This document shows, in pieces, positions 18,819 to 62,196 of a DNA stretch of 64,000 nt. The stretch is from positions 310,001 through 374,000 of the forward strand of contig NZ_JAESVB010000001.1 of assembly GCF_020618775.1 (NCBI RefSeq). Direction: 5' to 3'. Both the position numbers and the translations under genes were made by a program. The notes under the pieces were generated by a model, which saw only the letters and a list, made by a program, of their open reading frames with translations, was not told the DNA's origin and searched no databases. Within the stretch, counting starts at the first letter, position 1. Each line of letters starts with the position of its first letter. Source of the stretch: Acidisoma silvae. GTDB lineage: Bacteria > Pseudomonadota > Alphaproteobacteria > Acetobacterales > Acetobacteraceae.

Positions 18819-19037
18819 ATGTCACTCACCCTCGGACGAAAGACCGCCAGCCGCTCCGTTTTCGCCACACCCGCCCGTCTGTGGCAGGGATTTCGCGACC
18901 GTTATGCGCGGCTTGCCAAAGCGAACCGCCTCAAGCGCGAATTGGCGACCATGGACCCGCGCATGCTGTCAGATATCGGCGTCTCACGCGCCCAGCTGGG
19001 CTACGAGATCGAGAAATGGCAGCGCGACGGATTCTGA
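18819..19037 (+). CDS. DUF1127 domain-containing small protein
   Basis: A 72-residue protein with the DUF1127 (YjiS-like) motif at its C-terminus: ELATMDPRMLSDIGVSRAQL preceded by a basic helix with YARLAKANRLKR. In alphaproteobacteria short DUF1127 proteins have been linked to RNA metabolism and phosphate or carbon adaptation. The role of this one is unknown. The ATG at 18819 is the start that fits the family length; it is preceded by ACAAGG. It is divergent from a LysR gene, the likely regulator. Confidence 0.88.
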   Translation: MSLTLGRKTASRSVFATPARLWQGFRDRYARLAKANRLKRELATMDPRMLSDIGVSRAQLGYEIEKWQRDGF

Positions 19038-19095: not shown

Positions 19096-19171
19096 CCAGT
19101 GTGCTGAATTTGAAGTTCGCAAACAGTTGCGGCTCTGCTGGAGCGAACTTCAAATTCAAAAAGCACACTGG
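19096..19171. repeat. First of two adjacent 76-nt long hairpins before uvrB
   Basis: A long two-step inverted repeat. Outer arms are CCAGTGTGCT (19096-19105) and AGCACACTGG (19162-19171). Inner arms are GAATTTGAAGTTCGC (19106-19120) and GCGAACTTCAAATTC (19143-19157). That gives 25 perfect pairs interrupted only by an AAAA bulge on the 3' side. The 22-base loop can form CAG/CTG. It lies outside any supported gene. Confidence 0.9.
19115..19129 (+). promoter_or_regulatory. LexA-box-like site upstream of uvrB
   Basis: GTTC-N7-GTTG at 19115-19129 matches the alphaproteobacterial LexA consensus GTTC-N7-GTTC in seven of eight fixed positions. It lies 148 bases before the uvrB start and inside the first hairpin arm and loop. 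uvrB is a classic SOS gene, so LexA control is plausible but rests on one imperfect match. Confidence 0.35.
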
Positions 19172-19184
19172 AATCATATATTTG

Positions 19185-19260
19185 CTCGTGTGGCTCTGAT
19201 TTGGAAATTTCGCACCTCGCATGCCGCGAGCGACTGCGAATTTCCAAATCGCCACACGAG
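19185..19260. repeat. Second of two adjacent 76-nt long hairpins before uvrB
   Basis: Same length and design as the first, with different bases. Outer arms are CTCGTGTGGC (19185-19194) and GCCACACGAG (19251-19260). Inner arms are GATTTGGAAATTTCGCA (19198-19214, one extra T) and TGCGAATTTCCAAATC (19235-19250). A TCT bulge lies on the 5' side. The loop contains a third small stem, CTCGC/GCGAG (19216-19220, 19226-19230). It ends 16 bases before the uvrB ATG, so it must lie in the leader or promoter. Confidence 0.9.
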
Positions 19261-19276
19261 GGACTATGTTCCCGAT

Positions 19277-21504
<2,228 letters not shown>

Positions 21505-21508
<4 letters not shown>

Positions 21509-62019: not shown

Positions 62020-62121
62020 GAAGGAACTCTCCGGCAACTGATTGGCGCAGATAGAGCCGTGGCGGGTCAGGCGTCCAGTCCGCCGTTCGTCATAGCAGCG
62101 GGCAAGCACTCTGCTTGACGC

Positions 62122-62178
62122 TTATACAGAGTTTAGGAAATTTATCTCAAAAACATAAATTGACTAAACTCTGTATAA
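62122..62178. promoter_or_regulatory. Long two-step AT-rich palindrome between purH and the ATPase gene
   Basis: Outer arms TTATACAGAGTTTA (62122-62135) and TAAACTCTGTATAA (62165-62178) are a perfect 14-bp inverted pair. Inner arms AATTTAT (62139-62145) and ATAAATT (62155-62161) add seven pairs, separated by GGA on one side and GAC on the other. The loop is CTCAAAAAC. TATA-type hexamers lie in both outer arms. It ends 18 bases before the ATPase ATG and is a strong operator candidate. Confidence 0.8.
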
Positions 62179-62196
62179 ACATCAGGCTTGGTTCCC

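Follow-up and report, generated by a model that had tools for sequence, protein, structure and literature searches.

In ISY100, a member of the IS630 family of bacterial Tc1/mariner elements, 24-bp imperfect terminal repeats bind the transposase and insertion occurs at TA, according to the available text of PMC2170065; its reference list cites Tenzen and Ohtsubo 1991 on the preferential transposition of IS630 to TA in CTAG. RUP of Streptococcus pneumoniae is an IS630-Spn1-related MITE of 107 bp with 9-bp TIRs (available sections of PMC2229807). Sleeping Beauty contains four transposase sites, the outer ones 2 bp longer than the inner ones, and cleavage takes place at the outer sites only (accessible part of PMC7827188). 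For the REPs, a scheme with guides that act by base pairing was proposed.

The window, the whole stretch of 64,000 nucleotides of Acidisoma silvae DNA that was analysed, contained a pair of hairpins directly before uvrB. We consider it highly probable that these are the two ends of one non-autonomous MITE of the IS630/Tc1-mariner type.

Structure of the paired hairpins

Two hairpins of 76 nt were located at 19096-19171 and 19185-19260 with 13 nt in between, in agreement with the preliminary description of this locus. The fold z was -8.6 to -8.8 per hairpin, and none of 200 shuffles folded equally well on either strand. Each hairpin is composed of a 10-bp outer stem, a one-sided bulge and an inner stem ending in TTCGC/GCGAA, all as first described (the inner stem measures 15 bp), and the second hairpin (arm B) has one additional T. 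Both bulges lie toward the spacer: in arm A, AAAA is on the 3' side, and in arm B, TCT is on the 5' side.

The two hairpins had been called identical in design. The architecture is indeed the same, but the arms are mirror images in opposite orientation: without gaps, arm A equals the reverse complement of arm B at 44/76 positions and arm B as written at only 25/76. Since each arm is close to a palindrome, gapped alignment hardly separated the two orientations (53 and 54 identities), and the arm orientation therefore rests on the ungapped register together with the bulge side. As judged from its sequence, 19096-19260 is one element composed of arm A, a 13-nt spacer and arm B, with the arms inverted; "two ends of one element" describes it better than the earlier "duplicated element". 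The features are as follows.

19096..19260, + strand: complete element of 165 bp, with the outer tetranucleotides CCAG and CGAG counted in
19096..19099, + strand: CCAG at the insertion site, shared with the joined flanks of the congener G001; complementary to the inner CTGG (19168-19171)
19096..19171, + strand: arm A, 76-nt hairpin with an outer stem of 10 bp, an inner stem of 15 bp and a 22-nt loop; fold z -8.76
19097..19120, + strand: outer end of arm A, IS630-end-like, CAGTGTGCTGAATTTGAAGTTCGC; best identity to an IS630 end 83% (L343, Pseudomonas)
19158..19161, + strand: bulge AAAA of arm A, facing the spacer; it displaces the inner-end tip (from sequence and fold)
19172..19184, + strand: spacer, 13 nt, AATCATATATTTG
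19185..19260, - strand: arm B, 76-nt hairpin in inverted orientation to arm A; fold z -8.80
19195..19197, + strand: bulge TCT of arm B, facing the spacer (from sequence and fold)
19236..19259, - strand: outer end of arm B, IS630-end-like, TCGTGTGGCGATTTGGAAATTCGC; best identity to an IS630 end 71%
19277..21508, + strand: uvrB (MSQAATRS...), the neighbour outside the element; start chosen by eye

The whole-element model R2 spanned the window copy from end to end (9.6e-33) and the hairpin model R1 matched arm A with 7.4e-20; both models include the window's own arms, so these scores are not independent. No transposase gene was found within the 165-bp element, and the frames of at least 80 aa crossing it were extensions of flanking frames or lay opposite uvrB. 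In a set of 26 diverse elements, 3-5 extra bases were found on the spacer side in all 26 arms A and all 26 arms B. The spacer of other families is mostly of the AATCATARRTTTG type or close to it.

Two other features were noticed in the window. A small gene directly upstream of the element (18822-19037) looks like DUF1127 by eye. Far downstream, at 62113-62187, there is a 33-bp inverted repeat (85% complementary, 9-nt loop), just followed by an ORF from about 62198 that reads, also by eye, like an AAA-type ATPase (MDPIRNPFAPGAG...).

Copies in other genomes and the probable IS630 link

The preliminary description had proposed a search of other genomes with a model of the hairpins, and such a search revealed related structures in the genome itself, in its family and in other Alphaproteobacteria. 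A model from eight hairpins detected one further paired copy in the same genome, on contig C4. By DNA search, two copies were found elsewhere in the genome of the congener G001 and none in three other congener species. Within the family, 13 of 100 genomes (own genome included) had some match to R1, partly to shorter relatives, as this model also picks up relatives that are shorter and differently built. At least 48 model matches were obtained in G055, which belongs to the same family, and both arms were matched in 22 of the 28 regions examined.

A pattern composed of the inner tetranucleotides and the spacer occurred in at least 118 stretches of public genomes. By title, the 80 loci listed belonged to Alphaproteobacteria or to class-less Proteobacteria MAGs, except one Undibacterium locus (L108, which lacks the hairpins) and one MAG labelled Actinobacteria (L142). 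These loci held 81 pattern matches, 65 with both arms inside the locus and 16 cut by the locus end; in 61 of the 65 both hairpins formed, with 19 or more of 25 pairs (mean at random positions 12.9, maximum 20). Parsing yielded 92 elements from 85 of 133 loci, with a few parses that look spurious and 48 loci without any, and since the scan pattern requires inner CTAG, the parsed tetranucleotide counts are biased toward it. With the whole-element model, at least 11 of 299 genomes of the phylum matched when nine candidates per genome were scored, namely the own genome and ten others of its class. Carriers were seen in Rhizobiales, Sphingomonadales, Acetobacteraceae and others, and the 13-nt spacer, the arm order and the bulge sides were kept across orders.

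No viral contig matched by pattern. Phages gave no match at the default threshold; at E up to 1 there were 48 records, and the 20 listed, of 27-34 nt, were taken as chance. Among plasmids, a single site was shared in Roseibium/Labrenzia, and two Sphingopyxis records showed a half match.

Other small repeats were met in these genomes. Another dispersed repeat lies in the flank to the right of the genome's second copy (L061, about 2816-2931, G000:C4); it contains CCCGGCCTTGTGCCGGG and recurs at about a dozen other sites in the genome and at several in congeners with about 73-84% identity. Six loci of same-family genomes (L062, L064, L065, L067, L069 and L072) have shorter hairpins of 57-65 nt with CTAGTGTCC-like ends, several of them flanked by a CCTTTGTTTTCAG-like stretch, and in L065 and L067 they are paired. 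L068, L070 and L071 contain palindromes of 47-49 nt. These hairpins and palindromes look like sister designs of the same kind.

A probable link to IS630 was found through the ends. A degenerate pattern of the Bradyrhizobium ends (at most 3 mismatches) detected the 165-bp copies and, in addition, five pairs about 1.21 kb apart in the Bradyrhizobium genomes G106, G165 and G170; the reversed control pattern found no pair in any of the six Bradyrhizobium genomes. The same pattern gave none in G131, G125 and G163, and by end pattern neither an IS-length pair nor a long form was found in G055. The one pair examined, from G106, belongs to an insertion sequence that matched DDE_3 (2.1e-14) and the NCBIfam IS630 transposase (9e-29), and many of its plasmid relatives are annotated as IS630. 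All nine IS copies with both ends determined (L334-L338, L340-L343) start with C/TAGTG or C/TAGTA at both ends, and thus sit in CTAG. The left end of a Roseomonas mucosa IS630, TAGTGTCCCGAATCCGAAGTTCGC, is identical over 24 nt to the outer end of arm B in Bradyrhizobium.

When the 26 diverse elements, a greedy diverse pick from 91, were compared without gaps to the best of 19 IS ends, the outer ends averaged 77% identity and the inner ends 48%, against 33% for shuffles. For positions 9-24 alone the values were 76% for outer and 32% for inner ends. The inner ends fail this ungapped comparison because of their 3-5 extra bases. Both the sequence and the spacing of the 24-nt outer ends are IS630-like.

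In three plasmid IS630 copies (L339, L341, L343), the terminal CTAG marks the exact end of the annotated transposase gene, whose stop codon is therefore built with target-derived bases. A stop-codon preference of the element, with its TAG serving as a gene stop, was considered and found weak: it held for 53 of 150 ends, compared with 49 of 249 CTAG outside the element and 25% at random positions, in a count where locus ends truncate some frames and some copies enter twice.

Pairing, insertion sites and alternative explanations

The differences between the two hairpins had been taken for compensatory change, and this proved real. We found 27 two-sided changes in eight hairpins from four elements, compared with 9.3 by shuffling, and in the 26 diverse elements 225 cells (in 36 of 50 pairs) in which both sides differ from the commonest pair, compared with 56.8; in both cases none of 500 shuffles was as high. 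Kinship alone can push related sequences above such shuffles without any structure, but with the partner slid by one column, 32-35 two-sided cells were left. The alignment comprised 25 of the 26 diverse elements plus L008, without L112. Over its 1,300 cells, 96.8% were paired, with 23 G-T cells and 42 mismatches. So few G-T or G-U cells are unlike the usual picture for RNA.

Agreement within the outer stem of an arm was 93-95%, compared with 70% of 25 positions between the two ends of an element. Complementarity within an arm thus far exceeds the similarity between ends and is more than the binding of a shared transposase would need, and this counts against the IS630 MITE reading.

Within single genomes the picture was different. 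The 24 copies of G055 left from 28 regions after a length filter (with one pair lacking a Watson-Crick consensus) showed 89 one-sided cells, 11 compensated two-sided cells, two two-sided unpaired cells and 29 gaps, and 17 distinct Bradyrhizobium copies, counted after the same filter had dropped L256, showed nine one-sided and no two-sided cells. Resident copies are not kept paired, and the lineages that go on moving are. As lineages keep the pairing while resident copies lose one side at a time, we infer that pairing is needed for transposition or made during it. Correction of the arms in place by repair was set aside, because the changes among copies of one genome were mostly one-sided.

At the uvrB site, G001 has joined flanks with 78% identity: it reads CTGCCAG directly followed by GGACTATG, whereas the window reads CTGCCAG, then TGTG...CACACGAG, then GGACTATG. 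For the remaining three copies of the two species, the flanks are likewise joined in the respective other species (78-91% identity); at two of these sites the precise target is unreadable, and the joined flanks of L006 read CTGG.

In Bradyrhizobium, G106 and G131 each have seven paired copies by end pattern, one of them in G106 interrupted. The copies are 96-99% alike to the one in L077 and sit at CTAG. The flanks of 13 copies, joined around one CTAG, were searched against eight genomes, and 30 loci were examined. Joined flanks were found in a relative for 9 of the 13 copies (best pair 98.6% identical), and at the empty sites both arms were present or absent as one unit. At seven of the nine, one or more relatives had a single CTAG at the join. 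The remaining two showed CTTG in one case and CGGG or CAGG in the other, with no CTAG in any relative seen, and at the seven sites, too, some relatives differ from CTAG; this speaks against an IS630 MITE. So does the copy in L077, which lies where a gene ends, has taken the place of about 60 bp of flank and represents no clean insertion. A separate repeat of about 100 bp (L256, about 425-526, G106:C52) was found inside the inner CTA/G of one Bradyrhizobium element copy; it is seemingly another TA-targeting small element.

TA on both sides was not found for the window copy, which ends in CCAG and CGAG and faces CCAG at the joined flanks of G001. The outer tetranucleotides of its sister copy on C4, CTCG and CTGC, are likewise not CTAG, and in all four arms of these two copies the inner tetranucleotide is the exact complement of the outer one. 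Plain duplication of TA does not explain such ends, which is a further point against the IS630 MITE reading; later mutation may be the source of the non-TA ends of the window copy. The matching tetranucleotides would suit either a guide-and-target scheme like that of IS200/IS605 or copying of one hairpin side at the repair of a new insertion.

The first of these leads to another explanation, which we regard as improbable: an element that moves as a single strand (HUH, of the IS200/IS605 or REP/RAYT type), with hairpin ends, the left tetranucleotide as target and the inner tetranucleotides as base-pairing guides. It would account for the matching non-CTAG tetranucleotides in all four arms of the own genome, for the presence of the left CCAG at the joined flanks of G001 where the right CGAG is absent, while both pair with the inner tetranucleotides, and for hairpin pairing strongly kept at the DNA level with few G-T cells (23/1300). 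However, Y1_Tnp (PF01797) was detected in only 7 of 22 carrier genomes tested, and in none of G055, G001 and the Bradyrhizobium G106. This scarcity counts against a single-strand element in general but not for the window's own genome, where one frame of 202 aa has Y1_Tnp. The ends, moreover, resemble those of IS630, and REPs carry GTAG or CGTC and measure 20-50 nt, as given in the available parts of PMC8266576 and PMC3733652.

A structured RNA, either a leader controlling uvrB or small RNAs or processing signals in untranslated regions, is very unlikely in our opinion. The very stable folds and the strong covariation could be read in its favor, as could the position of the element, which ends 16 nt before the uvrB ATG at 19277; the preliminary description was right that the hairpins end just before this gene. 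However, neither the hairpin model (E up to 1) nor a DNA search matched the uvrB regions of four out of four congeners, and the copies other than the window's adjoin unrelated genes. Rfam gave no match in the window, and its 11 matches on 17 loci were all tRNA or TPP, none overlapping the element. G-U pairs are few, and the changes within genomes are mostly one-sided (89 compared with 11 compensated in G055; 9 compared with 0 in Bradyrhizobium). The paired RNA leader proposed at first is thus unsupported.

Finally, it is hardly credible that two separate palindromic IS630 MITEs inserted side by side once and that the pair then spread by other means, since the constant spacer, arm order and bulge sides across orders and the presence or absence of the pair as one unit at empty sites weigh against it, although CTAG borders each hairpin on either side in the majority of parsed copies (a set biased to inner CTAG) and single short palindromes with the same ends occur in other genomes (L068, L070, L071).

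Proposed mechanism and comparison with known systems

Among the first ideas about the locus, a mobile palindromic element is the one supported, by dispersed copies, empty sites and IS630-like ends. A protein-binding DNA structure may also hold insofar as the arms resemble transposase-binding ends. Identity to a known IS-derived element had been named as a result that would refute the first description: the ends do look IS-derived, but this form is undescribed in the literature searched.

For a MITE of the IS630/Tc1-mariner type, an IS630-family transposase acting in trans would bind the ends and cut at the outer tips, and the element would insert at the TA of CTAG-like sites. Every end would hold a second, inverted binding site, namely the other side of the hairpin, in which the tip TAGTGtsc is set apart from the core GA..CGAAGTTCG by 3-5 extra bases (the bulge). 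If cutting takes place only where the distance of tip and core is right, the inner sites with their displaced tips could be bound but left uncut; with the inner sites uncut, the whole 165-bp unit would move instead of a single hairpin. The copy before uvrB is, with the same high probability as the MITE reading, a chance landing; any effect on uvrB, for example through partial pairing of GAGGG (19258-19262), would be putative and secondary. The pairing of the hairpin would then be needed for transposition or made during it, and not be used by the host.

We might speculate further, and only tentatively, that this is a four-site mariner-type element with palindromic ends and displaced, uncuttable inner sites, in which the hairpin or cruciform is a required, co-evolving part of transposition. 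If true, the four-site palindromic element would be a bacterial counterpart of the inner/outer checkpoint of Sleeping Beauty, with fold-back replacing direct repeats.

We found no description of the double-hairpin form of an IS630-type MITE in the open literature searched; subscription papers were mostly outside this coverage, and a prior description may exist among them. Within the literature searched, the copies would represent a widespread, undescribed class of small mobile DNA in Alphaproteobacteria with a candidate enzyme. Their strong covariation could mislead searches for RNA; here it accompanies a DNA element, few G-U pairs and the uncompensated decay of resident copies. The constant bulge offers a testable rule for telling the ends of such an element apart.

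Compared with known systems, the element shares with the IS630 family (bacterial Tc1/mariner; ISY100 and the copies L334, L339 and L341-L343) terminal repeats of about 24 nt, TAGTGTCCYGA..., and CTAG flanks. It differs in having no gene, in its length of 165 bp, and in that each end folds back on an inverted second copy of itself, whose tip is displaced. RIME of Rhizobium, reportedly described by Osteras in 1995, is said to be an intergenic alphaproteobacterial element of about 108 bp with two palindromes, and by this description it is alike in being intergenic, alphaproteobacterial and composed of two palindromes.

RUP is alike as a small non-coding element for which mobilisation by an IS630 transposase at TA was proposed, and differs in that no double hairpin is described for it in the available sections of PMC2229807. 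The REP, REPIN and BIME sequences with their RAYT are similar in having two oppositely oriented hairpins in dispersed copies (PMC3733652 and PMC8266576, in the parts available); in contrast to these, our element carries CTAG instead of GTAG/CGTC, its hairpins have 76 nt instead of 20-50, and the Y1 transposase is absent from several carriers. With Sleeping Beauty (PMC7827188, as far as available) it may share the logic of outer and inner sites, which would be an analogy of function and not a homologous arrangement: Sleeping Beauty has direct repeats within ends of about 220 bp and belongs to another branch of the superfamily, whereas the present element has inverted repeats in 76-nt hairpins, and here the inner sites are the longer ones.
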